Positions 25,323-46,307 of a DNA stretch of 64,000 nt are shown piece after piece. Under the pieces are notes generated by a model that saw only the letters and a list, made by a program, of their open reading frames with translations, ran no database searches and was not told the origin of the DNA. Position 1 is the stretch's first letter, and every line of letters starts with the position of its first letter. The stretch is from Linnemannia elongata (Eukaryota; Mortierellomycota; Mortierellomycetes; Mortierellales; Mortierellaceae). The stretch is taken from NCBI GenBank assembly GCA_036320915.1, contig JAXBDG010000008.1, forward strand, positions 682,001 to 746,000, written 5' to 3'. Both the position numbers and the translations under genes were made by a program.

Positions 25323-27814
25323 TGTTTTGTGGTGTCTTTTTTCTGTTCAGTTAAGAATGTTGTCCTATGCAAAAAGAAGCCCTCTGGCCTTGATGTGAAG
25401 GAGTGATGGAAGGGATGACAGCGTGAAGGGGTGGGTGGAGAGGAAGGGGAAGTGTCTGTTGGAGAGAGTGATGGCGTGATGAGGAAAGAAGAAGAAGACA
25501 GGGAAAAATAGAAAAATAGATACAAGGGTGGAAGAAGGGATAAAGTAAGGAGGGAGGCAAGAGAAACAGAAGAGGAAACAGATAGAAAGAAATGAAAAGA
25601 AATGAAAAGAAATGAAAAGAAAAAAATGCTGATGGTGGCGGAGAGGGAGGGAGAGAGGGAGAAAGAGAAGAGATTGGAATAGTGGTTACAATTGAAAGGG
25701 AAAAGGAGAGAGACAACGATAGCCTTGCAAAGACAATTGGAATCAAAAAGGGTCGACCGCAACGACAACAGCCGATTGATTATATTGTTGTATGATACTG
25801 TAGATAATAATTGATCCCGGGACCTCTTTTTAATGTGCTCTCAATATCTATATCGTTGACATTGACCCTACCCCCCTGGGCGCCGGCTGATATATAGTCG
25901 ATAATGGTGATGATGGTGATGATGATGAGGGTGAGGCTGAAACCAAGGAAAAGGAGCCGCCAGCTCTAGAGCTAGGTTGCTGCAAGAAGGATGAACTGCA
26001 ACAGCCAATTGTCACTCCATAACTGATAATTGATATATATATATATGAGTTCATTTGATGCTGATGCGGGTGTTTGCCTAAAAATAAACCTCACAACGCC
26101 CTTTTCTTTTTCCATGGACCGTTCGCCCTCTCTTCTTTGTGGCAATCGACAAGGAGCATAGAGACAAAGTGAGCAATAGACACCTTTTCTCCTTTCGCAT
26201 CGTGTAACATCACACTCGCTCAATCACTCACAACAATAACACCTACAATAACAACAACACCAGCAACACCCACCCTCTCACTCGTCCTTTTGTTTCCCCA
26301 TCGCTGTCTTTGCCTTTGCCTTTGCCCTTGCGCATGTACAAACAAAAAAAATTCTTGTGATTGAAAAGGGAGTTCGCAGATGAGATCCATGTCTGTTTTC
26401 CTTTCTTCCAGCTGCACTCACCCACATGCCCTGCATAACTACTATCCACAGTCAAAGACTACTTATTCATTTCCATACACCCTCCCTTACCTACTTCCAC
26501 TTTCTCCCCTTGCAATCCTTTCCCCCTCTTTTTCTAATGAAATGTAAATTGAATAGCATGATCCAAAGACCCACCCAAGAAAAAAAAAAACGCGTTTTCT
26601 TCTCATGAGCCATCCTTCAGCCCAGAAAACCTTTATCTGCTTCTCTCTTCCAAATTGATTGCCCAACTACCGTTCCCTTTCCTCGCCCAACGGTCTATGA
26701 AGAGCTGGGCGTTCACAATTTCTTTACTGCTTCTCATTTATACTCAGCACAGGTGAAAATAAAATGTCCAACGACTTTCCAATTAAGGGATTATTGGCGT
26801 GTGATAGCTCGATGGTCTTTCCTCCTTTCCTCTCTCCCAGTTACTGCAGCAAGCTGAACTTCATTCCAACACAGAGTTATTTTGCAACGCCGCACACAAG
26901 AACAACACTGCTCTCATCGACAAACATCATGTAATAAATCCTCGGCGAACGATGATTCGATCTCATAGAATTATACAAAAAGCAAAAATGTTTTATTATG
27001 ATACAAGGGGGAAAGTGTACAGCACAACCGTTTGGGTTTGGGCGTCAAGGGCTGTTGTCCAAAAGAAAAAAAAACAGATAATGAAAAAATGAGGGCGTAC
27101 AGCAAACTGGTTTTTTGGGTGACTGAAGGTCGTGTTGGTCTGGACCAAGTTTCGAAAGAGCCATTTCGTATATGCATATGTCCGCATGTCATCTTGGTGC
27201 ACTGGGTATTCGGGCGCTCCCGATTGATAACGAGATTGGTGGGATAATGAGACAGTCAAAGTGATTTTCCTGAGACGCACCACGTCCTCGTCTCGTGCTA
27301 AGAAATGTACAGAGGAGCACCACCCTGCCAAGCGCGTACCATCCTCGCACCAAGGTCCAGTATCATTTGGAGTTGATTCTGCACGCCGCAAAATGAAACT
27401 CACCTAGGCAACGAAAGAAAAATAGTATGCTCCTGCCATATCGCACCTACCCCTATACCCTTAATCTGGGCAGACATCAGAGTCATTGCTATGGACGACA
27501 TAGACCCATTCTACTTTTAATTGTTGTCCAATACTGCCTCCTCTTTATCTACTCCAATTCTGGCTCTTTATCTTCAGTCAGTACGGTGCACCTATCCTCT
27601 ATTCATTATGCAAATATACACGCGTAATGTACACCCACGACTAAAACAGACGCACTGACAATGGTGGATTCAAGCAGTCTAGATATGCTCAGATTGGAAT
27701 TATTATCTAACCACGCATGGAGAGGGCTTATTGCGGCTTCTACGTGAAACACCCCTGTCTTTACCTTGCCATGTTTTCGTTCAATGCGAATGAGAGTCAT
27801 GTAGAATGAATCTT
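25323..27814. other. intergenic region left of the palindrome
   Basis: The first 450 bp are the purine-rich (minus-strand CT-rich) leader and promoter of the PMT gene, with repeated GAAATGAAAA units at about 25590-25622. The remaining 2 kb contain no convincing gene. The region ends where the inverted repeat begins. Confidence 0.5.
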
Positions 27815-27925
27815 GTTTATTATGTTGTACAAAAGATGAGTGTGATGCAAATGTGAGGGGGTGATGGTACAGGTCTATTACAGGCGAATGCTTGGGGAGG
27901 GTAGTGAGGCCATAGAGGACCCCAA

Positions 27926-28108
27926 TTACATGAGGCTAAAGTTGGCGGGCATGGTCTGAACTGACTTGCGGAGAGCCATCTCGAGAGCCTGGTCGCGGGT
28001 CATCTTGACTTGAGCAGGGCGCTGGCCATCGACTGAGGAGCGAGGGGTCTGGGCTGGGGTCGAGGCAGCAGAGGAGGTCTTGTTCTTGTTGGACTTGAAG
28101 AGAGACAT
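27926..28108 (-). CDS. small MSLFKS-family protein, copy A (left)
   Basis: 60 aa, single exon; family not recognised. It has three parts: a basic start (MSLFKSNKNK), a Ser/Ala/Pro linker with TPAQTPR and a conserved D-x-QRP, and a C-terminal helix-like segment (MTRDQALEMALRKSVQTMP) ending in a hydrophobic NFSLM. There is no signal peptide or membrane helix. A TATA box (TATTTATA, 28247-28254) lies about 140 bp upstream and an AATAAAC signal about 105 bp after the stop. It is divergent to copy B. Conservation across paralogues and the complete promoter/terminator set argue that it is a real gene. An identical copy is at 39996-40178. Confidence 0.8.
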   Translation of the reverse strand: MSLFKSNKNKTSSAASTPAQTPRSSVDGQRPAQVKMTRDQALEMALRKSVQTMPANFSLM

Positions 28109-28836
28109 GGCTGGTTGTATTGTTGGTTGGCTTGAGAGGGAGGACTTGATATATGGAGGGAGAGTTGCTCTGGGTTGCTAGAGTTGCTGTTGTTTGTTGA
28201 TGTTGTTGTTGAGAATGAGGAATGAAAAAGGTGGGGAGAGAGCAAGTATTTATACAAGTTGACAACCCAGAGGCCTAGGTGCAATTGGGACATCATCGTC
28301 ATAGCCAAGAGTGCAATTGAGTTGAACGGTTCATTTCCACTCTTGGCAAGCATGGGTTTGTTGATAGAGTTACACTCCGCTCCTTCTTCCCATCCGCCGC
28401 CGCACTGGAAAAATCTTTATTTCTCTCTATTTGTCTTTTTCTCTCTGTTTGCACTCAAAATGCCTCAGGGTCAAGCAAACAAAGAGCGTCATAATTGGTG
28501 AGCAAGTGTTGACTCTCTTGTCGCCGCAGAACTACGGCCATGACTCTAATTCTGTTGCATAGCTCCGCTTCAAAAGATGATGATTATGACACAAAAGAAG
28601 AAGCAGCCAGAATGGTCCATGCTCGGAAGGTGGCACGATAATCGATTAGAAAGCAAGTTGATTACAAAACCAACAAGTATAAAACCCGTCTGATCCCCTC
28701 CCTTTTGTTTCTTCATTTTCACCACCAACAAATACAACAACCAAGCAAAGAACAAAGCTACCCAAGCTACCCAAGCAACCAAGACTCCATCTCTCCCTCC
28801 AAGTCCCAACCACTCCTTACAAGTCAAAACACAATC
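28109..28836. promoter_or_regulatory. divergent promoter of copies A and B
   Basis: The TATA box for A is at 28247-28254 (minus orientation) and for B at 28678-28685 (TATAAAAC). The motif AATGGTCCATGCTCGG at 28611-28626 lies about 50 bp before B's TATA box and recurs upstream of copies C, E and E'. The leaders are CAA-rich. Confidence 0.6.
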
Positions 28837-29025
28837 ATGTCTCTCTTCAAGTCCAACAAGAACAAGTCAGCCTCCGCTGCCGCCTCTCCAGCCCAGTCCC
28901 CTCGCACATCGATCGATGCACAACGCCCAGTTGTCGAGGGAAACACGATGACTCGTGAGCAGGCCATCCGTCTGGCCATGCACAACTCTCAACAGAAGTT
29001 GCCTCACCACTTTAGCCTTCTGTAA
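28837..29025 (+). CDS. small MSLFKS-family protein, copy B (left)
   Basis: 62 aa, single exon, unknown function. It has the same three parts as copy A but is the most divergent in the tail: MTREQAIRLAMHNSQQKLP, then HHFSLL. The linker reads SPAQSPRTSIDAQRP. The frame stays open upstream to 28705, but the start at 28837 is chosen because all paralogues begin there with the same first 17 bases (ATGTCTCTCTTCAAGTC) and the upstream part resembles the CAA-rich leaders. TATAAAAC lies about 155 bp upstream, and AATAAAC occurs twice after the stop, at about 29101-29128. Identical copy at 39079-39267. Confidence 0.8.
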   Translation: MSLFKSNKNKSASAAASPAQSPRTSIDAQRPVVEGNTMTREQAIRLAMHNSQQKLPHHFSLL

Positions 29026-29666
29026 ACTCGGGACTTCCCATTTCACACCGCATTTGCATATCATTCATCCTTCACTGTACAATACCAACCACTAGCATCT
29101 TAATAAACCCATTGCATCTTCAATAAACCCATTACATACTACTCTCTACACCTTCTTGTTTGATGTGAATGCTTGCATACCATACCATGTCATGGAATGT
29201 GGAGGGGGAGTGATCAACAACTGTCGCCTTTTCATTTCGTACTTCCGATCTTTCTCTCCACCGTGAACACGCGTCAAATTATTCATAAGAGAAAAGGTCA
29301 GGAACAAACTGAGACTGATTGACATGTTGATGCGTCAGACTGATCAGTACCTGTTTGATGGATCGGGCTGATGGATCGAACTAACCAATCGTCCCTCCTT
29401 CTTTCTTACTCTTTGACTTCTTTCAATTGCCTAATCTCAGAACATCATTCGTTATGACAGACATGAAGGGAAAACCGGGGTAGATACAAAGTAGGTATAG
29501 TAGAAATAGGATGCAAGTGTTTATTTTATATTACAGGATTGAGAATGCAGGTTGGGATGTGATGAAGTGATGCAAAGCGTAGGGGTATGAGAGACAGGCC
29601 TTGAGGGAGACCGCCCTTTGGGGAGACCGTCCTTGTGGATCAGCTGGACCTGGTGTTGGTGCTGCT
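29026..29666. other. convergent 3' region between copies B and C
   Basis: 3' ends of convergent genes B and C with AATAAA-type signals, including two near-repeated AATAAACCCATT units at about 29102-29135. No further gene seen. Confidence 0.5.
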
Positions 29667-29846
29667 TTACATAAGGTTGAAGTTGAGGACGTTGGTCTGG
29701 ACAGTCTTCTTCATCGCCATCTTGATGGCTTGCTCCTGAGTCATCTTGGTCTCAGGACGCTGCTCGTTGAGGGAGGCACGAGGGGTCTGGGCAGGGGTGG
29801 TGGCAGCAGAGGCGGTCTTGTTCTTGTTGGACTTGAAGAGAGACAT
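29667..29846 (-). CDS. small MSLFKS-family protein, copy C (left)
   Basis: 59 aa, single exon, unknown function. It starts MSLFKSNKNKTASAATTPAQ. It has the shortest linker (NEQRPETK) and a Lys-rich helix (MTQEQAIKMAMKKTVQTN) ending NFNLM, so its net charge is more basic than its paralogues. A TATA box (CTTTTATAC, minus orientation) lies at about 29997-30005, some 155 bp upstream. It is divergent to copy D across a 1-kb region. Identical copy at 38258-38437. Confidence 0.8.
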   Translation of the reverse strand: MSLFKSNKNKTASAATTPAQTPRASLNEQRPETKMTQEQAIKMAMKKTVQTNVLNFNLM

Positions 29847-30847
29847 GGTTGGTTGTGTGTGTTGTTGTTGGCTTGAGTGGGAGGGAGACTTGAGGGTGGG
29901 TTCCTTTGGTGGTTGGTCGCTTGGGATAGCTTGAGTTGTTGTTGTTGTGTTTGGTTGTTGTGATGAGGAATAGAAAAAGAGGGAGGGATGCTGTGCCTTT
30001 TATACCCTTTTGAGTTCCCTCGACATTTGTCTTTAAGCGTTTCCTATCTTAGCAACGACGTTTGAAAGAGACGTCAACAACTCAGAAAATCGACTGCCGA
30101 CTGCCGAGCGTGGCCGAGGAAGGGGACGAAGGTCGAGCATGGACCATTCCATTCGCTTCTGTGGCAATGTGCGGAGTGTCACCTTCTTTCCCTTCTCGAA
30201 TTCTCGAATTAGACATGTTGCTTTTCTCGCAGTTCTTCCTTTGTTTTTTTTTGTCTCCGCACAGAAGAAAAGAAATTCGACGCTCACATTTTCACAACCA
30301 ACCCTCAACCTTTGATGACGATTGTTGACACGAACGTGTACAGAGAGAGGTGGGACAGGTACAAATATGGACTCCATTGGATGCAATGAGAGAGGCGGCA
30401 GAGTGGACAGGGGCAGTGGGGTAGTGGACCAAAAAGGACAGCGGGCGGAGTGTATACCTTGGCACAGAATGTTGCTTTGTTGTCTCCAACACTGCCAAGA
30501 GAGGAAATGAACAACCGTGCCAAAAGTGGCTCGGCGACCTTTTTCTTGCAATTAGTGTATGCTGCGGGTATGGGAAACCCAAACTGCGGGGGTGAAGAAG
30601 TAGAAAGAGAGAGAGAAACTTTATGATTCTTGGCTACGGTACCGGTTCAGCCTTGGCAGGTTCGAGTCATGGAGAGACCCTACAAAGTAGAAAGGAAAGG
30701 GCCAGGAATCATATATAAAAGGTTGTTGACCACCCTCTTTTTTCCTCCATCACTCAACAACAACAAAAAGCAACAACAACAAGCAAGACCAGCTCCAAGT
30801 ACCTCTACTCAAGACCCATCTCACCAGCCACTAAACATCCACCAACC
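29847..30847. promoter_or_regulatory. divergent promoter of copies C and D
   Basis: The TATA box for C is at about 29997-30005 (minus) and for D at 30712-30720 (TATATAAAA). The shared motif, in minus orientation (CGAGCATGGACCATT), is at 30134-30148. A tandem pair TTCTCGAATTCTCGAA at 30193-30208 fits two inverted TTCnnGAA heat-shock-element units. Binding by HSF is inference. Confidence 0.55.
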
Positions 30848-31033
30848 ATGTCTCTCTTCAAGTCTAACAAGAACAAGACCTCATCCGCTGCCTCGACCCC
30901 AGCCCAGACTCCTCGTCCCTCAGTTGACACCCACCGGCCTTCTCAGGTCCCCAAGATGACCCGCGACCAGGCCCTCGAGATGGCTCTCCGCAAGTCGGTC
31001 CAGACCATGCCCGCCAACTTTAGCCTCTTGTAG
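30848..31033 (+). CDS. small MSLFKS-family protein, copy D (left)
   Basis: 61 aa, single exon, unknown function. It is closest to copy A: the C-terminal segment MTRDQALEMALRKSVQTMP is the same and it ends NFSLL. The linker is TPRPSVDTHRPSQVPK. TATATAAAA lies about 130 bp upstream, the leader is rich in CAA triplets, and CAATAAAAGC follows at about 31144. It is followed, convergently, by the remnant of an F-box/LRR gene. Identical copy at 37071-37256. Confidence 0.8.
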   Translation: MSLFKSNKNKTSSAASTPAQTPRPSVDTHRPSQVPKMTRDQALEMALRKSVQTMPANFSLL

Positions 31034-31756
31034 TCAGTTTTCTCTAGTTTTCTCTGACGAGGGCATTTACCTCCTCTCACCTCCATTGCCTCAACGGGGG
31101 TTGTACATCATCTTTATACTCACTCATACGCTGTATCATACTCGCAATAAAAGCATACTCTTCCCGAGCATCTTCCACTTCTTTTCTTTGATGTTTGTCA
31201 ATGCTTTCGACTATTGAATAAGCCAACAATAACCAAAACGCGACTTTGTCACTGCACCCTACAGAATCGAGACTCAGAAACAAGGTCCTAGATGAATCAG
31301 GGCAGCCGAGACCTGGATCGAGTGCGAGACTCTGGCAAGGAAAGAGTCGATCCCACTACCCTCGCCTCCCTTGAACACGTTCTCAGAAACACCTAGAGCG
31401 ACTTCAATGTCAGACCCCCCTGTGCTATTTGACCATCGGGCGACATCTTTTTTTAGACCACTTTTTCTCAGGAGCAACCCCACCTCCACCTCCACTCATG
31501 CTTAATGCCTTTTAGCCCTGACCGTGCGCGATTTTCCTTTTTTCTCAGCAAAGGTGTGCCTCCCTCTACCCAACTCCGACTTCTCCGATTCAAATTGAAA
31601 GAAATGGATGATTCCTTTTCGGACAACACAATGTCCATACACAATCGCATTTCGCTTGAAAATGCTCTAGACCCCCTTCAAATAAGCACAGTATTAGTAC
31701 GGTTCCAGTGAGTTTATGATCATGAAACAACATTCAAAATTGGCTTCAACATATCA
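31034..31756. other. region between copy D and the F-box remnant; repeat boundary
   Basis: Contains the 3' end of copy D and the inner edge of the identical arm at 31551. From 31552 to about 31740 the sequence is still homologous to the reverse complement of 36364-36552, but by eye only about 70% identical. No coding gene supported. Confidence 0.55.
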
Positions 31757-31894
31757 TTAACATTTGTCGTAAAACTCATAAACTGCTTTCTTCTCGGGGA
31801 TGCGTCCTTTGGGCTCCTTGTCCAAGGTATACTTGTCAAGAGGGAGAATGATCAGCTGGAGACATTTCAATGGCAAGGGGGATGAGGTTGACAG
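31757..31894 (-). pseudogene. remnant of F-box/LRR-like gene (5' and 3' ends only)
   Basis: On the minus strand the first 50-60 nt of the F-box gene found at 33827 are joined directly to its last 80-90 nt. The start codon equivalent is CTG, and the 5' part still matches the PLPLECLQLI region at DNA level. The junction is near 31840-31846. Past it, the reading continues as KYTLDKEPKGRIPEKKAVYE, matching the intact copy's RYTLVNRPKGHIPKENAVYA. The original TAA has become AAA, with a new stop two codons later. This is an internal deletion of about 2.4 kb and cannot encode a functional protein. Confidence 0.8.
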
Positions 31895-32304
31895 GGGTGA
31901 GGTGGTGAATGTCAATGTGGGGATTGAGAAAGGTGATAAAGGAAACAGAGAAACAGATGAGTTTGGTGGGAAGCGAAGAATAGGATGATAGGTTGTGATT
32001 CAAGCCAGAGAAAAACGAAGAGCTTGCCAACGAGACGATACATTCATAACCCACGGGTGGTGCAGGTCAGGTACCATCAGCTGAAGGCGATTGATCGATA
32101 CGTGTTCCTTTACTTGTAGTTTTGTTGATAAATAACGTCCTTGACCGTTGCTCATCGATCCACACGCTTATAATGATAATGTATAGTGAATGTTTATTAT
32201 TTTGATATACAGGGGAATGGGTTGTATGCAGTGTAGTGTTACACGCCTGAGAAGGCTATGAATGCTTGAAGATGGAACCGAGAGAGGTGTATCTCGCCTG
32301 GTGG

Positions 32305-32496
32305 TTACATGACGGTAGAGATGGAAGGCATGGTCTGGACAGCCTTATGCAAGATAGAGTCAAGAGCTTGCTCGGTAGTCATCTTCTTGGTGGTCTGGGC
32401 GGCAGGGCGCTGGGCATCGACCGAGGGACGAGGAGTCTGAGCAGGAGAGGCAGCAGCAGAAGCGGACTGGTTCTTGGTGGACTTGAAGAGAGACAT
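32305..32496 (-). CDS. small MSLFKS-family protein, copy E (left)
   Basis: 63 aa, single exon, unknown function. It is a distinct branch: MSLFKSTKNQ start, a longer linker (QRPAAQTTKK) and a tail MTTEQALDSILHKAVQTMP ending SISTVM instead of NFSL(M/L). A TATA box (CTTTTATAC) at about 32619-32627 is preceded within 20 bp by the shared motif. It is divergent to copy E' (33197-33388), which encodes the same protein although the surrounding DNA differs. That pattern suggests selection on the protein. Confidence 0.8.
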   Translation of the reverse strand: MSLFKSTKNQSASAAASPAQTPRPSVDAQRPAAQTTKKMTTEQALDSILHKAVQTMPSISTVM

Positions 32497-33196
32497 GATG
32501 GAGAATGTGATTTGGCTTGGGAGGGAAGGACTTGAAGGGATGGGAGGTTTGCTTTGGTTGTGTTGTTGTTGTTGTTGATTGTTGTAATGGAGAATAAAAA
32601 AGTGAGAGGTCATTGTTGCTTTTATACTGAGTTGAGCATGGACCAGTAGGCATTTGTTACAAAACACAACAAAGTCGACAATAACGCTACGTCTCAACCC
32701 TCTTCACCCACAGAGTTCATTTCATGACATTCCAGGAACCGCCGTGTCGTTTTTGTCATCTAGCATGGCATCCTTTTTTGTCAACGGCTGTTCTTCCCTT
32801 AGGAGGTGTAAACAAACAATCGTCATTGCTGACTGAATGAATGAGGGGATAAAAATATGAGCAACGAAAAAAGCATGGAAATTGCTGGGAACAAAATTTC
32901 CCTCAAGTCATTCACAGGGGCAATTGAGCGGACATTGTTCGTATTCTTGACTCCGCTAGCTATGGAAACAAAGAAATGGTCTATGCTCGGCAACTCGGCC
33001 TTCGACTTTTAGGTCGTCATCGCCAGGATTAGCCTTCTAGAAGGGAAGAGACAAGGTATAAAAGCAGCAAGGGTCCTCTCTCTTTTTTATTCTTCATCAC
33101 AACAGGCAACAACAACAACACAACCAACAACACAACCAAAGCAACCCTTCCTTCCCTTCAAGTCCTTCCCTCCCAAGCCAAATCACATTCTCCATC
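32497..33196. promoter_or_regulatory. palindrome centre: divergent promoter of E and E'
   Basis: The symmetry axis lies near 32840. Leaders and TATA boxes are mirrored (left about 32619-32627, right TATAAAAG at 33057-33064), but DNA between about 32628 and 33055 is not alignable as a repeat. The shared motif occurs on both sides: TGAGCATGGACCA at 32633-32645 (minus) and TGGTCTATGCTCGG at 32977-32990 (plus). A TTCTAGAA site (TTCnnGAA, heat-shock-element type) at 33035-33042 sits just before the right TATA box. Confidence 0.6.
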
Positions 33197-33388
33197 ATGT
33201 CTCTCTTCAAGTCCACCAAGAACCAGTCTGCCTCTGCTGCTGCCTCTCCTGCTCAGACTCCTCGTCCCTCGGTCGATGCCCAGCGCCCTGCCGCCCAGAC
33301 CACCAAGAAGATGACTACCGAGCAAGCTCTTGACTCTATCTTGCACAAGGCTGTCCAGACCATGCCTTCCATCTCTACTGTCATGTAA
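33197..33388 (+). CDS. small MSLFKS-family protein, copy E' (right)
   Basis: 63 aa with the same predicted protein as copy E. The CAA-rich leader differs from its mirror by several substitutions and small indels, so this pair has not been homogenised like copies A-D. TATAAAAG at 33057-33064 is about 135 bp upstream with a TTCTAGAA site next to it. AATAAAC follows at about 33491. Confidence 0.8.
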   Translation: MSLFKSTKNQSASAAASPAQTPRPSVDAQRPAAQTTKKMTTEQALDSILHKAVQTMPSISTVM

Positions 33389-33826
33389 CCACCAGGCGAG
33401 ATACACCTCTTTCGGCTCCATCTTCAAGCATTCATAGCCTTCTCAGGCGTGTAACACTACACTGCATACAACCTATTCCCCTGTACATAATAATAAACAT
33501 TCACTATACATTATCCTTATGTGCGTGTTGATCGATGGGTTTGATTACCGGTCAAGAACGCTGTATATCAGCAAAACTACAAGTAAAGGAACACGCATCG
33601 AACAATCATACGCCTTCAGCTGATGGTACCTGAATCTTGTCTTGAGAGGAAATCCGCGCCACCTATGGGCTCTTAATGTGTCGTCTCTTTGTCATGTTCT
33701 TTTCGTTTTTCTCCGCCATGCAACACAGTCTATCACCCCATTCTTCGCTTCCTACCAAACTCATCTGTTTCTCTGTTTCCTTCATCACCTTTCTCAACCC
33801 CAACATTGACATTCACCACCTCACCC
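33389..33826. other. region between copy E' and the F-box-like gene
   Basis: 3' end of copy E' and upstream region of the F-box gene. It contains TGATGGTACCTG at 33621-33632, a 12-mer that recurs at 32068-32079 (inverted) and twice at 43054-43103. No other gene seen. Confidence 0.5.
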
Positions 33827-34142
33827 ATGTCAACCTCATTCCCCCTGCCATTGGAATGTCTTCAGTTGATCATCCTCCTTCTTGTACAGGAGTGTGACAG
33901 CAACACACTCTACTCCAGACTAACAAATACATCTGTTCCGCGACCATACCCTTATTGTACAAGGATCCTTTTCGGATCGTCAAGTCGAAACGCGATTCCG
34001 ATGGCTACTCCATGCTATCAGAGCTGATCAGGATTATCCTCCGCAGCATGCCCGATGGCCACGTCTCGGACCTGTTGCGAGCGGCTTATCTACAGGAATC
34101 GTTGGAACCAGGATATCAACGAGCAGCAGAGCCTTCAACGCC

Positions 34143-34200
<58 letters not shown>

Positions 34201-36339
34201 GCAGCAACAAGAACAACAACGACAATCATCCCGTATTACTCGTTCGTTACCAGCGTGGGGTTCAAGCCTAGCAGCCGACTTCCGTTCAGCATCTTTACGG
34301 GTGTCGATGATGGCTTTCTCGACTATCTGGAGCGTTATGGACATAAGAGTCGATATTTGTTGGAGTGTTCTGTCATGGACAAGTTTGACCGCGAGTCAGA
34401 CGACTGGATGGTTCAGTATACTGCTGGTCAAGAAATCTGTAGGGACTTAACATGGGCGCTCAGCATGGACGCAGAACGTGTCAAGACGTTGTCTATCCCT
34501 CTCTCGGATATCACCCACTACTTGCCATTGGTCAGTCGCTTCGAGGTCGTCACGGATGTGACATTTTTATTGCACAGGGACGCCCGACCAGCTGGAGAAT
34601 GGCAACAAAGCGCAACTTTAGAGCAGCAGGAGGCATGGAAGATGCTACAGATGGAGAGGCCGCAGCAACTCGAGGCTATGATTTTGTTTGTACAGGAGCA
34701 CAGGGGACGACTTCCCGGGGTACTCGCCACTGGTCGATGCAGCCGCCTCATAGAGGGGTTTGGGGAAAAGGACTGCCCAGAGGAATATCAACTTCGCCTA
34801 CTCCAGGCTCTCCCACCGCTGACCAACCCACGCTCTCTGGATTCTGACAACTGGACCCATTTTGTTGTCCAAGCAAAGAACACTGACCTCTCGTTTGTCA
34901 GGACTTTCGAGCCTCCCTCAACACCATTGTATGAACATTTTGCACAGGAGCCGTTTCTACACCGCTGTCGCACCCTCGAGTCCATCACTATGGATTTCTC
35001 AGGCGACGACGACACCTTCCAATGGGCAGTGGACGAGCGTATCATGCGTAACGCCTACATCACTGCTGGTCGACACTCTCGACTTCCTCAACAACCGCTT
35101 GTTTCTCTTCGCCATTTCGCTGGCAGCCATGGGGCGCTCTGTACAGGACGACACGTCAACGATGTTGCCTTTGCATTCTGCGATACAATCGAAACCATCG
35201 ACGTCACAGACAAATGGACATGGGATCATGGGGACGAGGCCGTTCAGAAGGCACCCGAGATCCTCACATACTACTACGAGTCCTTATGGTCCATCCCGCG
35301 GCTTTCGACATTCAAGGTGTCCATTTTATGCAAAAATCTCCGCATAGAACCAAGCCTCTTGTCTCGTTGCCCTCAGCTCGTCACTGTGAGCCTTCACGAC
35401 TGCCGGGAAGAGTATGTCATGGGTGACATTGAGTACTGGAAACCAGCAGAGCTACCTCGATTGACAACACTTGACCTACAAGGAACGCCCGCCATCTCAT
35501 TTCACCCAGACATCCTCAAAAGCACGCCTGAACTTCGGTCCCTGTGCTTATTGATTTATCATGAGACTCTTCATAACAGCTTCATCCCACCGCCCGAGGA
35601 TTTTGTTCGCATGGATATGGGCGTATCCGGTGAAACCACCCTTAGTAAGATCTTCTCGACATACACAGCAGCCCGCCGCCCTGTTTGGACCTGGGACTGG
35701 GACCTGCCCAAGTTGACCAAGTTGACGCTGGAGTCGGAGCATGCCTACAGATTTCAGTTCAGGATGCTGGGTGGTACACCGAGTCTTGTTGAATTATCCA
35801 TCAACAGTAGGTCGTTGTCGGGCTTGCACGGACGGACAATTGGTCTTGCGGACCTCCTCAAGTCTGGTACAGTGTCTTCGTCATCAGCCCAGATTCTTGT
35901 CGGATCAGGAGAAGTGCCGACGCAAGAGGCTCAGGAATCAGTGGACATGGACATGGATTCAACAAGCACATCAGGGCAGAAACCCGAATACGTCCACGTG
36001 CCGGCCTTAAAGATCTTTGACCTGAGAGGACTCTGGGTCTTAGACGACCCCGCTGTTTTAGAAGTGCTCTGTTCCAAGGTCATGCCCAAGGTCTCTGAGC
36101 TGATCATGGTTGACGGCTGCGATGGATTCAGTCTTACCGAATGGGTCGAATTGACTTCGAGCCATCTGCACCTTCTGATGTTCGCAAGAATCCGAATGGC
36201 AACGACTTTGAATGAAGTGAAGGGAGTTGGATTGGGACGCATGCGTGGTGTTCCTTCTTATCCATCCAGGTATACCTTGGTCAATAGGCCCAAAGGACAC
36301 ATCCCCAAGGAGAACGCAGTTTATGCGTTTTACGACTAA
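33827..36339 (+). pseudogene. F-box/LRR-like protein gene with a probable frameshift in the F-box
   Basis: The natural start is ATG 33827 (MSTSFPLPLECLQLIILLLV, then QECDSNTLYS), an F-box-like opening. Near 33910-33918 the expected continuation LLQTNKYICSATIPLLYKDP is in another frame. A loss of about 7 nt within a CTACTC-type repeat would explain the shift. Read as is, the first frame stops at 34025-34027. The second frame stays open to 36339 and could start at ATG 34012, giving 775 aa without an F-box. A (CAA)n microsatellite at about 34142-34203 reads as poly-Thr. The remaining 700 aa have LRR-like segments (LPRLTTLDLQGTP, LPKLTKLTLESEH, VPALKIFDLRGLW), usual for fungal F-box substrate adaptors of SCF ubiquitin ligases. 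Sequencing error or real gene loss are both possible. Confidence 0.65.
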
Positions 36340-37070
36340 AGTTAATGATAGATTTAAGCCAATTTTGAATGTTGTTTCACGATAATAAATCAACTTGGAC
36401 CGTACTAATACTGTGCGTATTTGAAGGAGGTCTAGAGGTATCTGTTGGATGTTCAGGAGAAAAATCATGAATGCATGTGTTGTGTATTGTTCGAAAAAGA
36501 ATCATCCATTTCTTTCAATTTTAATCGGAGCAACGGAGTTATTTGGACGCGCTTGCTGAGAAAAAAGGAAAATCGCGCACGGTCAGGGCTAAAAGGCATT
36601 AAGCATGAGTGGAGGTGGAGGTGGGGTTGCTCCTGAGAAAAAGTGGTCTAAAAAAAGATGTCGCCCGATGGTCAAATAGCACAGGGGGGTCTGACATTGA
36701 AGTCGCTCTAGGTGTTTCTGAGAACGTGTTCAAGGGAGGCGAGGGTAGTGGGATCGACTCTTTCCTTGCCAGAGTCTCGCACTCGATCCAGGTCTCGGCT
36801 GCCCTGATTCATCTAGGACCTTGTTTCTGAGTCTCGATTCTGTAGGGTGCAGTGACAAAGTCGCGTTTTGGTTATTGTTGGCTTATTCAATAGTCGAAAG
36901 CATTGACAAACATCAAAGAAAAGAAGTGGAAGATGCTCGGGAAGAGTATGCTTTTATTGCGAGTATGATACAGCGTATGAGTGAGTATAAAGATGATGTA
37001 CAACCCCCGTTGAGGCAATGGAGGTGAGAGGAGGTAAATGCCCTCGTCAGAGAAAACTAGAGAAAACTGA
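36340..37070. other. region between F-box-like gene and copy D'
   Basis: AATAAAT at about 36385 serves the F-box gene. The outer identical arm starts at 36553. The rest mirrors 31034-31551, the 3' flank of copy D. No further gene supported. Confidence 0.5.
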
Positions 37071-37256
37071 CTACAAGAGGCTAAAGTTGGCGGGCATGGT
37101 CTGGACCGACTTGCGGAGAGCCATCTCGAGGGCCTGGTCGCGGGTCATCTTGGGGACCTGAGAAGGCCGGTGGGTGTCAACTGAGGGACGAGGAGTCTGG
37201 GCTGGGGTCGAGGCAGCGGATGAGGTCTTGTTCTTGTTAGACTTGAAGAGAGACAT
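37071..37256 (-). CDS. small MSLFKS-family protein, copy D' (right)
   Basis: 61 aa; exact mirror of copy D (30848-31033), with the same TATATAAAA box in reverse at 37384-37392 and the same poly(A) signal. Here it is convergent with the longer F-box-like gene instead of the remnant. Confidence 0.8.
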   Translation of the reverse strand: MSLFKSNKNKTSSAASTPAQTPRPSVDTHRPSQVPKMTRDQALEMALRKSVQTMPANFSLL

Positions 37257-38257
37257 GGTTGGTGGATGTTTAGTGGCTGGTGAGATGGGTCTTGAGTAGA
37301 GGTACTTGGAGCTGGTCTTGCTTGTTGTTGTTGCTTTTTGTTGTTGTTGAGTGATGGAGGAAAAAAGAGGGTGGTCAACAACCTTTTATATATGATTCCT
37401 GGCCCTTTCCTTTCTACTTTGTAGGGTCTCTCCATGACTCGAACCTGCCAAGGCTGAACCGGTACCGTAGCCAAGAATCATAAAGTTTCTCTCTCTCTTT
37501 CTACTTCTTCACCCCCGCAGTTTGGGTTTCCCATACCCGCAGCATACACTAATTGCAAGAAAAAGGTCGCCGAGCCACTTTTGGCACGGTTGTTCATTTC
37601 CTCTCTTGGCAGTGTTGGAGACAACAAAGCAACATTCTGTGCCAAGGTATACACTCCGCCCGCTGTCCTTTTTGGTCCACTACCCCACTGCCCCTGTCCA
37701 CTCTGCCGCCTCTCTCATTGCATCCAATGGAGTCCATATTTGTACCTGTCCCACCTCTCTCTGTACACGTTCGTGTCAACAATCGTCATCAAAGGTTGAG
37801 GGTTGGTTGTGAAAATGTGAGCGTCGAATTTCTTTTCTTCTGTGCGGAGACAAAAAAAAACAAAGGAAGAACTGCGAGAAAAGCAACATGTCTAATTCGA
37901 GAATTCGAGAAGGGAAAGAAGGTGACACTCCGCACATTGCCACAGAAGCGAATGGAATGGTCCATGCTCGACCTTCGTCCCCTTCCTCGGCCACGCTCGG
38001 CAGTCGGCAGTCGATTTTCTGAGTTGTTGACGTCTCTTTCAAACGTCGTTGCTAAGATAGGAAACGCTTAAAGACAAATGTCGAGGGAACTCAAAAGGGT
38101 ATAAAAGGCACAGCATCCCTCCCTCTTTTTCTATTCCTCATCACAACAACCAAACACAACAACAACAACTCAAGCTATCCCAAGCGACCAACCACCAAAG
38201 GAACCCACCCTCAAGTCTCCCTCCCACTCAAGCCAACAACAACACACACAACCAACC
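37257..38257. promoter_or_regulatory. divergent promoter of copies D' and C'
   Basis: Mirror of 29847-30847. TATA boxes are at 37384-37392 (minus, for D') and about 38099-38107 (plus, for C'). The shared motif AATGGTCCATGCTCG is at 37956-37970. The TTCGAGAATTCGAGAA pair is at 37896-37911. Confidence 0.55.
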
Positions 38258-38437
38258 ATGTCTCTCTTCAAGTCCAACAAGAACAAGACCGCCTCTGCTG
38301 CCACCACCCCTGCCCAGACCCCTCGTGCCTCCCTCAACGAGCAGCGTCCTGAGACCAAGATGACTCAGGAGCAAGCCATCAAGATGGCGATGAAGAAGAC
38401 TGTCCAGACCAACGTCCTCAACTTCAACCTTATGTAA
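38258..38437 (+). CDS. small MSLFKS-family protein, copy C' (right)
   Basis: 59 aa; exact mirror of copy C (29667-29846), including leader, TATA box and 3' flank. Transcribed away from D' and convergent with B'. Confidence 0.8.
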   Translation: MSLFKSNKNKTASAATTPAQTPRASLNEQRPETKMTQEQAIKMAMKKTVQTNVLNFNLM

Positions 38438-39078
38438 AGCAGCACCAACACCAGGTCCAGCTGATCCACAAGGACGGTCTCCCCAAAGGGCGGTCTCCCT
38501 CAAGGCCTGTCTCTCATACCCCTACGCTTTGCATCACTTCATCACATCCCAACCTGCATTCTCAATCCTGTAATATAAAATAAACACTTGCATCCTATTT
38601 CTACTATACCTACTTTGTATCTACCCCGGTTTTCCCTTCATGTCTGTCATAACGAATGATGTTCTGAGATTAGGCAATTGAAAGAAGTCAAAGAGTAAGA
38701 AAGAAGGAGGGACGATTGGTTAGTTCGATCCATCAGCCCGATCCATCAAACAGGTACTGATCAGTCTGACGCATCAACATGTCAATCAGTCTCAGTTTGT
38801 TCCTGACCTTTTCTCTTATGAATAATTTGACGCGTGTTCACGGTGGAGAGAAAGATCGGAAGTACGAAATGAAAAGGCGACAGTTGTTGATCACTCCCCC
38901 TCCACATTCCATGACATGGTATGGTATGCAAGCATTCACATCAAACAAGAAGGTGTAGAGAGTAGTATGTAATGGGTTTATTGAAGATGCAATGGGTTTA
39001 TTAAGATGCTAGTGGTTGGTATTGTACAGTGAAGGATGAATGATATGCAAATGCGGTGTGAAATGGGAAGTCCCGAGT
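38438..39078. other. convergent 3' region between copies C' and B'
   Basis: Mirror of 29026-29666; AATAAA-type 3' signals only, no additional gene seen. Confidence 0.5.
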
Positions 39079-39267
39079 TTACAGAAGGCTAAAGTGGTGA
39101 GGCAACTTCTGTTGAGAGTTGTGCATGGCCAGACGGATGGCCTGCTCACGAGTCATCGTGTTTCCCTCGACAACTGGGCGTTGTGCATCGATCGATGTGC
39201 GAGGGGACTGGGCTGGAGAGGCGGCAGCGGAGGCTGACTTGTTCTTGTTGGACTTGAAGAGAGACAT
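39079..39267 (-). CDS. small MSLFKS-family protein, copy B' (right)
   Basis: 62 aa; exact mirror of copy B (28837-29025). Its TATA box lies at 39419-39426 in reverse, and the shared motif CCGAGCATGGACCATT is at 39478-39493. Confidence 0.8.
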   Translation of the reverse strand: MSLFKSNKNKSASAAASPAQSPRTSIDAQRPVVEGNTMTREQAIRLAMHNSQQKLPHHFSLL

Positions 39268-39995
39268 GATTGTGTTTTGACTTGTAAGGAGTGGTTGGGA
39301 CTTGGAGGGAGAGATGGAGTCTTGGTTGCTTGGGTAGCTTGGGTAGCTTTGTTCTTTGCTTGGTTGTTGTATTTGTTGGTGGTGAAAATGAAGAAACAAA
39401 AGGGAGGGGATCAGACGGGTTTTATACTTGTTGGTTTTGTAATCAACTTGCTTTCTAATCGATTATCGTGCCACCTTCCGAGCATGGACCATTCTGGCTG
39501 CTTCTTCTTTTGTGTCATAATCATCATCTTTTGAAGCGGAGCTATGCAACAGAATTAGAGTCATGGCCGTAGTTCTGCGGCGACAAGAGAGTCAACACTT
39601 GCTCACCAATTATGACGCTCTTTGTTTGCTTGACCCTGAGGCATTTTGAGTGCAAACAGAGAGAAAAAGACAAATAGAGAGAAATAAAGATTTTTCCAGT
39701 GCGGCGGCGGATGGGAAGAAGGAGCGGAGTGTAACTCTATCAACAAACCCATGCTTGCCAAGAGTGGAAATGAACCGTTCAACTCAATTGCACTCTTGGC
39801 TATGACGATGATGTCCCAATTGCACCTAGGCCTCTGGGTTGTCAACTTGTATAAATACTTGCTCTCTCCCCACCTTTTTCATTCCTCATTCTCAACAACA
39901 ACATCAACAAACAACAGCAACTCTAGCAACCCAGAGCAACTCTCCCTCCATATATCAAGTCCTCCCTCTCAAGCCAACCAACAATACAACCAGCC
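39268..39995. promoter_or_regulatory. divergent promoter of copies B' and A'
   Basis: Mirror of 28109-28836, with a TATA box for A' at 39850-39857 (TATAAATA) and for B' at 39419-39426. Confidence 0.55.
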
Positions 39996-40178
39996 ATGTC
40001 TCTCTTCAAGTCCAACAAGAACAAGACCTCCTCTGCTGCCTCGACCCCAGCCCAGACCCCTCGCTCCTCAGTCGATGGCCAGCGCCCTGCTCAAGTCAAG
40101 ATGACCCGCGACCAGGCTCTCGAGATGGCTCTCCGCAAGTCAGTTCAGACCATGCCCGCCAACTTTAGCCTCATGTAA
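39996..40178 (+). CDS. small MSLFKS-family protein, copy A' (right)
   Basis: 60 aa; exact mirror of copy A (27926-28108). Its AATAAAC signal at 40283-40289 is the outermost part of the inverted repeat. It is convergent with the RUS-like gene, whose stop codon is at 40373. Confidence 0.8.
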   Translation: MSLFKSNKNKTSSAASTPAQTPRSSVDGQRPAQVKMTRDQALEMALRKSVQTMPANFSLM

Positions 40179-40372
40179 TTGGGGTCCTCTATGGCCTCAC
40201 TACCCTCCCCAAGCATTCGCCTGTAATAGACCTGTACCATCACCCCCTCACATTTGCATCACACTCATCTTTTGTACAACATAATAAACATTCTCCAACT
40301 TTCATCCTGCTCTGCACCCTGGCCTGAAGCGCTCCATGCACTGCGGATGAAAATGTAGGCAAAATATATCTT

Positions 40373-42609
40373 TTAATCTATTTGGATACGGTTGCGATCG
40401 CCGTCTGTAAGGAATAAACTATCCGTGTCCCACTCTTTCTGTCTCATAACCTCTGTCAACCTCGGCACAGTTTCTATAGCCTCCTCATGTGCCTGTCTAA
40501 TAGCCATGCTCCACTGATCCTCCTTCGAAATCCCACTACCACTGCCCTGCTGCTGCTGCTGCATGATCGCTCTAGTCGCGCAAGCATGGTAGAATCCCTG
40601 AACCAAATCCTTGCCCCTGGCCTTCTTGTCGAACCAAATCACCACCTTATTCGCCTTGATATCCGCCATCATATAATAGTGCTCCTTCTGGATCAAATCC
40701 ACCTGCCTAAACGCTCGATCTAGTGCCTCCGTTCCTTTGCCACGTCCCGCAAATCGATGAATAGCCGGTTCGACCTCAATACCGACTCTGAAGGGCGACT
40801 GGTATGCCGTAACAAAGACCTCCTTGTGCGCCACTTGCATGGGTGTTGGTACAAGTTCCTCCAGCTTGTGAACCAATTCTGCGAGAGACAACTTTTCTCT
40901 CTTCTGTCCTGGCTCTTTGTCAAAGATAAGCTCCTTCATGACACTGTAAAAGACTGTCTCGGCTCGAGGGATGTTGAGTGATGGTGTGGTGACATAGTGG
41001 CTGGATCGGTAGTTGGAGTAGATGTTGAAGATCGAGAACGGCAAGAAGGTCAGGCACATGGGTACCAATGGGAGCACAGTCGGGTCCTCTGAAATATGGC
41101 TCATCAATGCTGCGATCACAACGCCCAATCCTGTGCCTAAATAATGGCGGGTTATAACAGGCGTGGGAAAAGGTGTTAGAAGCGGCCCACTTCGCTCTCT
41201 TCCTAAGTCCTGATCAACATCCGATCGTCATCCTGTGCACCTACCAACTAGCCCTGCTGCAGTTGTCTGCGATCCTGATTTTCCAGTAATGTCTCCCAAG
41301 CTAGGTTCACACAGAAACAACAAGAGAAGGTCAGCTCAGGGGCTAAGGTCATGGTCAAAATTCATAAAATAATGACATAAGACGTAAATGAACGCCCTCG
41401 TGCACTCACTTGTCCCGGAGGGCAAAGGTCTTGTTCATTTGTGCCCGAGTCGCAGAGCTGGCCAACCAAGCCATGTTTTTACCTAAGGTAGCGTCAAGTA
41501 AAGATCATTAACGGGTGAGTGCTCCATAGTGTCAGGCTCCCCAGTCTAATCAAGGGTAAACGACCCTCGTATTTCGGATCGGGTGAAAGGGACACAGACA
41601 TCTATTTGCGTTTTTGTTAGAGATAGCATAAAGCTTACCGATGTTCGAGATAGAAGCGATCACAAGGAAAGATCCTGGCCAGAGCGGGGTCAGCAACTCT
41701 AACACATTGGCGCCCTGCATGGCGACGGTGGCCTGGAACCGGAACCGCTTTGGCTCGGAGTCAAACTTGTCGCTCACAAAGGATGCATAAACCACACCGC
41801 CCAGCTGTCCCAATCCGTCCTTGATGATCCAATTGAGGGCCGCTGCCATGGGTATAGATCCTGCTCCAAGGCCCATCGCAAACAAGAGCGATTGGGTCGA
41901 TATCACTATCGTGGTTGGGAAAAGAGAACGAAAAAATGTGAGTCAAGGTCCGACCGATCCTTATGTCCCCCAACGTTTGTTTGCATGGGATATCGTGATA
42001 GAAAAACGCCCCACGGTTGTGTTCGCTTTGTTTGTATTTACCTGCTGTGACAGATCCCGCAACATTATGGACAAACTGCCACTTTGCAAAGGGCCAGTAG
42101 TTAGGCGTGACCGACTCCGGGAACCCTTTGGGTAAGAACACCGCCAGCGCCGTCTGTGGCGAGAGCAAGTGCCTGGCCGCATCTATATCTGTCTCTGTCT
42201 CTGTTGTCGATGGTTCTCCTGCTCCTGCTGCTCCCTTGTCAGAGCCTTGTGATGCTGGTGTGGACTGGAAGGAACACGTTTTGGAGTCGTGGTCTGTCGA
42301 GAGGGTCAGAGTCTGCCACTTGGGCAGCCAGGTCCCAACCTTTCGCTGACGGATGCTGAGAGCCTTGAGAGCCGACTGGTCATCGCCACCAGATGCAGAC
42401 GGACTCTTGGTTGAGGTTGAGAGGGATCGAAGTAGATTCCTGGACTTGGTCGGTGTGGTTGAGGGCCATGTTGTTGCAGTGGGAAGAGGTCTGTGGGTCC
42501 TGATCAGGCCATGAAGCCTTCGTTGTGCGGATGTGGGTGAAGCAGAGGTACGGATGGTGTGCCATGAGGATGGCGAGTTAGCTGGGCGGAGGGAGGGGAG
42601 GAAGTTCAT
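40373..42609 (-). CDS. RUS family (DUF647) protein, probably mitochondrial
   Basis: Five exons on the minus strand (42609-42042, 41905-41639, 41482-41410, 41300-41245, 41136-40373) give 575 aa. The N-terminal 75 residues are rich in Arg/Ser/Thr with almost no acidic residues and contain RNLLRSLSTST, typical of a mitochondrial presequence. The DUF647 core includes FLPKGFPESVTPNYWPFAKW, TQSLLFAMGLG, AAALNWIIKDGLGQLGGVVY and the Asn/Gly-rich SISNIGKNMAWLASSATRAQ with membrane-like segments. Plant RUS1/RUS2 of this family act in UV-B and vitamin B6-related root signalling. The fungal role is not established, so no function is assigned. Confidence 0.85.
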
Positions 42610-44603: not shown

Positions 44604-46307
44604 ATGAGAATCTCATCCACCATCATCCTCTCCGCCGTGGCAGCCATCGTGTGCGCACATCATCAAGAAGCAAAGTCGGAATCTTCTTCCCAGAATACTC
44701 AACTCTACAGCTCCGAACGGTTCGCAAAGCGCGGTCTCCCAGTCGTCGGCGACCTCCTCAGCGGTCTTCCTGTCGTAAGCAGCGTCGCTGGTGGCGGTGG
44801 CAATTCTGGATTGTTGAAGAAGCGCGGTCTCCCAGTCGTTGGCGATTTGCTTGGCGGTCTCCCAGTAGTCAGTGACGTTGCTGGAGATGGTGACTCTGGC
44901 CTTTTGAAGCGCGGGCTCCCAGTCGTTGGCGATCTGCTTAGTGGCCTTCCTGTTGTCAATGACGTTGCGGGAGGTGGCGACTCTGGACTTTTGAAGCGCG
45001 GCCTCCCAGTCGTTGGCGATCTGCTTAGTGGCCTTCCTGTTGTCAATGACGTCGCGGGAGGTGGAGACTCTGGACTTTTGAAGCGTGGACTCCCAGTTGT
45101 CGGCGATCTTCTTGGCGGCCTTCCTATCGTCAATGACGTTGCGGGCAGCAGTGGTTCTGGATTGCTAAAGCGCGGTCTTCCAATTGTCGGCGATATCCTT
45201 GGAGGTCTACCAGTTGTCAATGACGTTGCGGGAGGTGGCGACTCTGGATTGCTGAAACGCGACGATGATGATGAAGATTGCGAGGACGTGGGAGACGATG
45301 ACAATGACCATCATGGAGGGGGAAACGACCATCACGGTGGTGGCGGTAACGATCACCATGGAGGCAACGACCATCCCGGAAATGATCATCACGGAGGCAA
45401 CAGCCACCCCGGAAATGATCATCATGGAGACAATCACCACCCCGGAAACAGCCACCATGGAGGCAACCACCACCCAAGCAACCACCATGGAGGCGGTCAT
45501 CACGGCAACAATCACCACGGCAACGATCATCACGGCAACGATCATCATGGCGGCAACACTCCCTGTGAGTGCGGTAATGACCATCATGGCGACCACTATC
45601 CTAGCCACAACGACCATCATGGAGGAGGAGGAAGAGATCATCAAGGAGGCGGCGGCCATGGTCTTATTAGCCTCGACCTCAATGCTATCATCAAGGCCAA
45701 GATTGACATTATTGCCAAGATCTACATCGGCGTCATTGTCGACGCTCTCATCGACATTAAGGCCGACATACTCGTCAAACTCTGCGCAAAGTTGAACATT
45801 AATCTTCTGGTTGATCTTGATATTGCTGCTAAGCTGAAAGGTAGCTCATTGCGCGATTGGTGTTTCCTGCCCTCTCTTCATCTCTGTTGCCATTTTGTCT
45901 TTGATGCTGATAAAGGTTTTTTTTGCCTTACTAATTTTATAGCCATCGTTGATGCCAAGGTGGATGCTGCTGTCAAGGTCTGGGTCAACACAGATATCAG
46001 GACCAGGATCGGTGACTCTGTCCGCGGCCACTGCTCTCACTCATGCTCGTCAGATGTCGATGCTGGTATCTTGGCTGATATCTTAGCGTCCATCAAGATT
46101 GACCTTGGACATCTCCTTTCCAGTCTGGATGCCAACATTTTGGCTGATATCCGTGTGCGCCTCAACGCCCTAGGTATTAAGTTGAATGCCCATGTGAGCC
46201 TTGCTTTGGGACTGGACCTTGGTGCTATTCTCGGTGATGTTGTTGGTGACTGCAGGAATGCTGACTCCACCGTCCTAGCAGATCTGAAGCTTGCCATTAG
46301 TGCCTGA
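44604..46307 (+). CDS. secreted Kex2-processed repeat precursor with His-rich and amphipathic domains
   Basis: Two exons (44604-45840, 45943-46307) give 533 aa. A signal peptide (MRISSTIILSAVAAIVCA) precedes a short pro-region ending AKR. Six near-identical units of about 30 aa follow (44734-45260), each opening GLP(V/I)VGD(L/I)L(S/G)GLP and ending GLLKR or GLLKKR. The dibasic sites fit Kex2 cleavage in the Golgi, releasing about six peptides of 27-28 aa. Next is a segment of about 135 aa with dozens of DHHGG/NHH units, a likely metal-binding His-rich region, then an Ile/Leu/Asp/Ala-rich C-terminus with repeated LADI and LDLG patterns. The architecture matches fungal KEP precursors; peptide activity is unknown. 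The 102-nt intron (GTAGCT, branch-like TTACTAAT, ATAG) is in frame without stops, so retention would add 34 aa. Confidence 0.85.
   Translation: MRISSTIILSAVAAIVCAHHQEAKSESSSQNTQLYSSERFAKRGLPVVGDLLSGLPVVSSVAGGGGNSGLLKKRGLPVVGDLLGGLPVVSDVAGDGDSGLLKRGLPVVGDLLSGLPVVNDVAGGGDSGLLKRGLPVVGDLLSGLPVVNDVAGGGDSGLLKRGLPVVGDLLGGLPIVNDVAGSSGSGLLKRGLPIVGDILGGLPVVNDVAGGGDSGLLKRDDDDEDCEDVGDDDNDHHGGGNDHHGGGGNDHHGGNDHPGNDHHGGNSHPGNDHHGDNHHPGNSHHGGNHHPSNHHGGGHHGNNHHGNDHHGNDHHGGNTPCECGNDHHGDHYPSHNDHHGGGGRDHQGGGGHGLISLDLNAIIKAKIDIIAKIYIGVIVDALIDIKADILVKLCAKLNINLLVDLDIAAKLKGSSLRDWCFLPSLHLCCHFVFDADKGFFCLTNFIAIVDAKVDAAVKVWVNTDIRTRIGDSVRGHCSHSCSSDVDAGILADILASIKIDLGHLLSSLDANILADIRVRLNALGIKLNAHVSLALGLDLGAILGDVVGDCRNADSTVLADLKLAISA
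44734..45260 (+). repeat. six tandem ~90-bp coding repeats
   Basis: Each unit encodes a GLPVVGD-type peptide ending in a Lys-Arg site. Units differ mostly at Ser/Gly after DLL and in the Gly-rich spacer (GGGD, GDGD, GSSG). The third and fourth encode identical peptides, suggesting recent unit duplication or homogenisation. Confidence 0.9.

Follow-up and report, generated by a model that had tools for sequence, protein, structure and literature searches.

A mini-protein gene family of Linnemannia elongata and its residence in palindromic gene clusters

A stretch of 64,000 nucleotides from the fungus Linnemannia elongata (assembly GCA_036320915.1, contig JAXBDG010000008.1, here termed C31, positions 682001-746000), referred to below as the window, contains a cluster of ten genes for proteins of 59-63 amino acids (aa). 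These genes belong to an undescribed mini-protein family, which is present in many copies in L. elongata and has relatives across Mortierellaceae. Taken together, the gene family and its housing in palindromes maintained by gene conversion are regarded as very probable. The best overall explanation, to which a probability of roughly 55% is assigned, is that the genes encode presumably abundant intracellular mini-proteins, found so far in Mortierellaceae only, and lie largely in old palindromes.

Palindromic clusters and probable arm-to-arm conversion

The initial annotation had described one cluster of five paralogues (A-E), each present twice and sharing several sequence motifs. All ten open reading frames (ORFs) are present in the window (Table 1), and an alignment of the five proteins has 24 invariant columns, confirming the common motifs. 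The copies are real, but their arrangement had been overlooked. A-D recur because the two palindrome arms, each of 3738 nt, are inverted copies with 100% identity. E and E' lie next to the left arm and make up an older inverted pair of their own. The gene orientations alternate (-,+,-,+,-,+, spacer gene, -,+,-,+). Also overlooked were a second cluster and further loci in the genome. The second one, cluster 1, holds ten copies at C31:608820-627605, 82 kb upstream of the window cluster (cluster 2), and the order A B C D E E' / D' C' B' A' is common to both.

The arms of cluster 1 are 99.4% identical, with 22 differing columns (three of them gaps) in 3757. Three of these differences fall in the outermost 56 bp and 19 in the innermost 340 bp, and the arm centre (608794-612152) has 0 differences in 3359 bp. 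If the 22 differences were evenly spread, the chance of such clustering would be about 4e-22, for an interval picked after seeing the data. The inner edge has an identity of about 92% in cluster 1 (19 differences in 239 bp) and of 86% in cluster 2. The arms end at similar places in both clusters, on the outside at the 3' end of A and on the inside about 450-520 bp after D. The outer palindrome ends lie 82 and 112 bp past the stop codon of A, close to its poly(A) signal. Between the two clusters, long aligned blocks are about 85-94% alike (81-100% in 250-bp bins), and the two spacers have no long DNA match to each other. The common layout, the diverged edges and the identical interiors argue for old palindromes homogenised by gene conversion, and the identity pattern of the arms of both clusters fits arm-to-arm conversion. 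The features that mark a conversion-maintained palindrome, namely old inverted arms with an identical interior and diverged edges, were found in both C31 clusters.

Alternatively, the arms might be identical since each inverted duplication is recent, without any upkeep of old palindromes by conversion, and the 0 differences in 3738 bp in the window would follow from this as well. Recent duplication is considered improbable. The asymmetric gene order and the similar arm ends in both clusters suggest that the palindrome is older than the duplication of the cluster, and the inner edges, at 86% and about 92%, are older whereas the interiors are identical.

Protein searches of the 51-Mb genome returned 11 matches on a second contig (C2:1289346-1337973), eight on a third (C1:960904-1004054), two more at C31:317-319 kb, and weak matches on C10 and C13. 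The genome thus contains at least 39 matching loci (20 + 11 + 8), a count of matches, as not every match on C1 and C2 was read as a full ORF. Four of the C1 matches reach E values (E) of only 0.004-0.007 with the window query, and the locus at C2:1337824 has no ORF by the start pattern used. On C1, the eight matches are mirror-symmetric around a spacer of about 30 kb. Their paired coordinates sum to 1964966-1964967, except at one match end where the match lengths differ, and the loci of the innermost pair (L058/L059) share a stretch of 1793 bp at 100% identity that breaks off abruptly on the inner side. The arrangement on C2 is mixed, with 2.17-kb tandem units and inverted copies at 79-95% identity; the best mirror pair there (1289346/1290193 and 1333813/1332968) is at 90-94%.

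The several genomic sites could also point to a selfish or mobile element, in which long terminal inverted repeats carry the mini-genes as passengers or as a killer/antidote system. A discrete module, whose outer limits coincide with the 3' end of A in both clusters, would agree with such an origin, as would the unrelated genes in the two spacers, which in cluster 1 are a carboxylesterase-like and an asparagine-synthase-like ORF (recognised by reading the sequence, not by search). The outer ends, however, lack a target-site duplication in both clusters, with direct junction matches no longer than 1 base, although the ends may be blurred. No transposase-like ORF was noticed among the spacer ORFs of either cluster, for which no systematic transposase search was made. 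Moreover, locus tags of L. hyalina suggest two clusters at a similar spacing, that is, a fixed place. A mobile origin is considered improbable.

Family membership, selection and protein properties

That the proteins belong to no described family, as the initial annotation had supposed, was borne out by database searches. No family member has a listed Pfam match at cut-off, and the best recurring match, P33MONOX, reaches 19.4 bits against a cut-off of 27, with 7 of 98 members at E<=1. In NCBIfam, 34 members gave five weak matches of one member each (best E 0.0027), and the best match in PDB has an E of 0.14. A profile of the five window proteins retrieved 169 proteins at E<=1 (120 listed), and a profile of 34 proteins retrieved 340 at E<=10 (120 listed). 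The named proteins among the matches listed are hypothetical or uncharacterised and come from genera which, Linnemannia aside, are taken here to belong to Mortierellaceae. Only one label differs, as UniRef calls P0152 of Entomortierella parvispora 'SMP domain-containing', which Pfam does not reproduce. Judging by the matches listed, the family is likely limited to Mortierellaceae. In the literature, no paper was found for MSLFKS, and STPAQTPR, KNKSASAA and SAASTPAQ are absent. The two papers retrieved deal with human immunodeficiency virus antibodies and hold SNKNKT, and nothing relevant on Mortierella palindromes, promoters or expression was found among the matches listed.

A length-shifted, X-padded query selecting longer proteins gave 25 matches, of which 20 are named and all of these are from Mortierellaceae, on the same assumption about the genera. 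Longer motif-sharing proteins were rejected as a clue to function. Several of the 14 that were read hold two family copies (P0121, P0123 and P0151-P0154 among them), and others have unrelated tails or leaders and look like fused gene models or read-through frames. Several public gene models, including P0121, P0001 and P0151, merge two adjacent genes of the family or contain unusual extra exons, which makes annotation-based copy numbers unreliable.

In a FastTree phylogeny of 74 selected sequences, the B clade is supported at 1.0 across several species and the E-type at 0.99. D (0.95) and A (0.84) both group with L. hyalina and M. hygrophila, and C groups with its relatives at 0.78-0.90; the deep nodes of this tree are weak and its alignment is very short. 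Different paralogues cluster with different orthologues from other species, so they are more than dosage copies of each other. By this tree, the subtypes are probably older than these species and were not converted into one another.

The family genes are coding and under strong purifying selection. Six orthologous pairs between clusters 1 and 2 differ at 22 synonymous and 2 nonsynonymous positions (262 synonymous and 842 nonsynonymous sites), counts which conversion between the clusters may both have lowered, with no reason seen for a bias toward synonymous changes. The proportions of synonymous (pS) and nonsynonymous (pN) differences are 0.084 and 0.0024, giving a pN/pS of about 0.03. Among A-E within the window, the ratio of nonsynonymous to synonymous rates (dN/dS) is 0.13-0.57, with dS up to about 1. 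These ratios lie below 1, a value near which, according to the initial annotation, would suggest non-functional ORFs, and spurious or decayed ORFs are ruled out by the 22 synonymous against 2 nonsynonymous differences.

Conservation was counted over 151 sequences, consisting of 146 of 150 homologues and the five window proteins (P0017, P0074, P0090 and P0099 were missed by the start pattern). M1, K8, N9, S13, R23, S25 and T38 are invariant, and F4, K5, S6, A14, A15, P18 (150 sequences), A19, Q20 (146), (S/T)21, P22 (149), R30 and A42 are nearly so. These counts bear out the signature MxxFKSxKN..SAAx(S/T)PAQ(S/T)PRxS...R...(M/L)Tx(E/D)(Q/E)A in a short ORF, by which the family is recognised. 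AlphaFold2 predicts one helix at residues 39-52 and the remainder with low confidence (mean predicted local distance difference test 66.6, predicted template modelling score 0.26), so in this model the proteins look mostly disordered with one short helix. High constraint where no fold is predicted points to binding motifs, and the two (S/T)P sites together with RxS suggest putative kinase sites.

Two other roles were considered for these small proteins. The C-terminal helix might be a ubiquitin-interacting motif (UIM) of the pattern Phi-x-x-A-x-x-x-S, making the family ubiquitin-binding mini-proteins. Paralogues A, B and D fit this pattern, and the Pfam family UIM_2 (PF23625) matches two segments of P0151 at an E of 0.0088 and 16.5 bits, below the cut-off of 21. 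UIM_2 scores, however, in only 1 of 98 members at E<=1 (P0151 being outside the 98), and the hallmark Ala and Ser are present in 81 of 147 and 80 of 150 sequences, respectively, and are lost in E and in the compared members on C2 and C1. Ubiquitin binding is thus very improbable, and family membership defined by a core with acidic patch and a match to PF02809 or PF23625 was tested and rejected. It is just as hard to regard the proteins as secreted effectors or antimicrobial peptides that were amplified for interaction with hosts or bacteria, even though they are small, lineage-specific and amplified. The N-terminus MSLFKSNKNK has no hydrophobic signal-peptide core (by reading the sequence, no predictor having been run) and the five window proteins contain no cysteine. 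Constraint is highest in the N-terminal half and not diversifying, with the pN/pS of 0.03.

Promoters, predicted expression and neighbouring features

A TATA box, a CAA-rich leader and a poly(A) signal had been ascribed to each gene in the window, and all three recur in a survey of 21 genes. The survey comprises 12 of the 20 genes on the window contig (the left halves of both clusters) and nine on C2 and C1, several of them near-duplicates. In 20 of 21 genes, including all 12 on the window contig, TATA(A/T)A(A/T) precedes the ATG at a distance of 130-163 nt. In the 150 kb examined, any one interval of 40 bp has a chance of about 1% of containing a start of this motif, and none of 16 control ORFs, whose starts are uncertain, has it between -260 and -40. 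AATAAA or ATTAAA follows the stop codon within 300 nt in 20 of 21 genes, and all leaders consist of 3-8% G with 6-17 CAA. The fraction of preferred codons, which were defined on C2 and C1 members, is 0.54-0.76 in six window genes versus 0.30-0.54 in 16 naive background ORFs. Codon resampling for five window genes gave a mean of 0.43 and a maximum of 0.51, compared with 0.62 observed.

TATA box, leader and codon use make high expression a probable prediction, in line with that part of the initial proposal of an abundant mini-protein with high dosage or stress-induced expression. Stress induction is unsupported. In nine promoters, no three-unit heat-shock element was found, two-unit elements number 6 against 2.9 expected, and cores of the stress response element (STRE) number 15 against 10.2 expected, which is no clear excess.

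Some of the promoters share a 12-bp element, TGGTC(C/T)ATGCTC (TGGTCYATGCTC). The 150 kb examined contain 12 matches, every one of which belongs to one of the two clusters and is placed upstream of B, C, E, E' or the second-arm copies of B and C, pointing at its gene. The element was first spotted by eye, which biases this figure as a test. For the window genes, the distance from its start to the ATG is 138-289 bases. The promoters of B, C and E' otherwise match one another at chance level and have 15-16 bases in common at the element; blastn of the promoter stretches of B and C returned a 16-bp match at the element, one chance-level match of 10 bp and nothing else. A general k-mer scan of promoters gave low-complexity words at the top and was blind to a word common to four promoters, so the element was tested directly. 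In the whole genome, the element has 38 matches, none at the family loci on C1 or C2, and the backwards control has 12. The 26 matches outside the two clusters are about twice the control, and some of them may mark co-regulated genes.

The palindrome spacer in the window contains an ORF of 775 aa, which is not a family member. A long (AAC)n tract near its start (34143-34200) encodes poly-Thr in frame. Two minus-strand ORFs at window positions 40373-42609 match two parts of a root UVB-sensitive family protein and are probably exons of one gene, which ends 83 bp outside the palindrome. A self-match of about 450 bp at 81% identity with a shift of about 93 bp (44727-45261) is an imperfect tandem repeat inside a 567-aa ORF (44604-46307), and an ORF at 9258-10352 encodes a glycoside hydrolase of family 9 (E 6.5e-79). 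Upstream of the window, at C31:674356-676052 (L016/L017), lies a 715-bp direct repeat at 97.5% identity with its copies offset by about 1 kb. Paralogue E is taken from its inner ATG. Its frame is also open from 32613, which would give a form of 102 aa that has no equivalent in E'.

Table 1. Features of the mini-protein gene cluster, in window coordinates.
Feature	Position	Strand	Remarks
Left palindrome arm, genes A-D	27814-31551	+	3738 nt, 100% complementary to 36553-40290, 0 differences
Paralogue A	27926-28108	-	60 aa
12-bp element	28613-28624	+	points at B
Paralogue B	28837-29025	+	62 aa
Paralogue C	29667-29846	-	59 aa
12-bp element	30135-30146	-	points at C
Paralogue D	30848-31033	+	61 aa
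Degenerate inner edge of left arm	31665-31835	+	partner 36267-36437, 86%
Older inverted pair around E	32197-32577	-	partner 33116-33496, 381 nt, 96%
Paralogue E	32305-32496	-	63 aa, from inner ATG
12-bp element	32634-32645	-	points at E
12-bp element	32977-32988	+	points at E'
Older inverted pair around E'	33116-33496	+	partner 32197-32577, 381 nt, 96%
Paralogue E'	33197-33388	+	63 aa, same protein as E
Spacer ORF	34012-36339	+	775 aa, weak leucine-rich-repeat matches below Pfam cut-off
Right palindrome arm, genes D'-A'	36553-40290	-	3738 nt, partner of left arm
Paralogue D'	37071-37256	-	identical to D
12-bp element	37958-37969	+	points at C'
Paralogue C'	38258-38437	+	identical to C
Paralogue B'	39079-39267	-	identical to B
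12-bp element	39480-39491	-	points at B'
Paralogue A'	39996-40178	+	identical to A

Proposed role and comparison with known systems

The mirror-image layout would keep several identical copies of each subtype, providing dosage and protecting each copy from decay. A TATA box, a G-poor CAA leader and preferred codons would then yield high output, to which the shared upstream element would add co-ordination for B, C, E and E'. In the cytosol, the product may act as an adaptor or as ballast and be disordered for the most part. Its N-terminal half, MxxFKSxKN..SAAx(S/T)PAQ(S/T)PRxS, could serve as a ligand with a twin proline-directed phosphorylation site, and the short capped helix MTx(E/D)QA(L/I) could form a second contact. 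Such a phospho-regulated adaptor role, read from motifs, is tentative. Somewhat more speculative still is the wider proposal of a class of abundant phospho-switch mini-proteins of the phylum's own, the subtypes of which would be stored as mirror-image pairs with a private promoter element, with conversion serving one gene family, at several independent places in the chromosomes, as an inherent means of repair and dosage.

Several observations weigh against the best overall explanation. On C2, the copies occur in both tandem and inverted arrangement and agree by only about 79-95%, and palindromic homogenisation is therefore not universal. 'Abundant' is drawn from sequence proxies, and the 16 control ORFs of the codon comparison may have wrong starts and touch the range of the family at 0.54. 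The 12-bp element is absent from the promoter stretches of D and of the C2 and C1 members x1, x2 and y1, as well as from the A promoters apart from the region common to A and B. The start pattern itself requires (K/R)(N/D) near positions 8-9, and y2, a divergent C1 member outside the 151 sequences, has D in place of N9 and neither T38 nor a TATA box. Disordered stretches rich in (S/T)P are common, so the phospho-motif reading is not specific. An amphipathic membrane helix, finally, was rejected as not significant for A, B and C, for which shuffled sequences score at least as high in fractions of 0.33-0.79; the fractions are 0.02 for E and 0.05 for x1 and y1.

Alternatively, the family could consist of disordered proteins of the LEA/SMP or Hsp12/Con-6 type, which would protect against stress in desiccation or dormancy and have been amplified to raise their dosage. 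The proteins are small, apparently disordered and, in the window, cysteine-free; their genes are amplified and have strong-looking promoters, and the UniRef label of P0152 names the SMP domain. This identity is nevertheless unlikely. P0152 has no SMP or LEA match in Pfam at E up to 10, a range in which HMMER filters drop most weak matches, and for 98 members no SMP or LEA family is among the 25 of 41 matched families that were listed. Membership of PF04927 or another LEA domain was tested and rejected. Disordered protectants conserve composition rather than sequence, whereas the N-terminal motif is near-invariant here, and the nine promoters have no clear excess of STRE or heat-shock elements.

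The family, which is undescribed, has hundreds of relatives in databases and bears no label of function, is an addition to a fungal group (Mortierella) that is used for lipid production and soil ecology. The palindromes carry a clean conversion signature outside the setting of a sex chromosome. With one family lying repeatedly in palindromes, it becomes testable whether selection for dosage and identity creates and keeps palindromes.

Among known systems, Hsp12, Con-6 and SMP/LEA proteins resemble the family in size, apparent disorder and presumed abundance, but the family matches no SMP/LEA model and conserves a near-invariant linear motif in place of a composition. The inverted Hsp70 gene pairs of Drosophila at 87A/87C are likewise intronless, TATA-driven genes of high output (predicted for the family) that are kept alike as inverted copies. 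No homology is claimed, and induction by heat or other stress is unsupported for the family. Palindromic clusters of ampliconic genes are found on the mammalian Y chromosome. Like these, the clusters consist of inverted arms with near-identical multicopy genes around an unrelated spacer, and their identical interiors and diverged edges are consistent with arm-to-arm conversion. Unlike them, they are fungal, not known to be on a sex chromosome, and shorter-armed, at a few kb against tens to hundreds. Their mini-genes are without introns in the coding part and alternate in orientation, and several palindromes hold one family. This repeated residence in palindromes, conversion-maintained in the two C31 clusters, is the most unusual property of the family.

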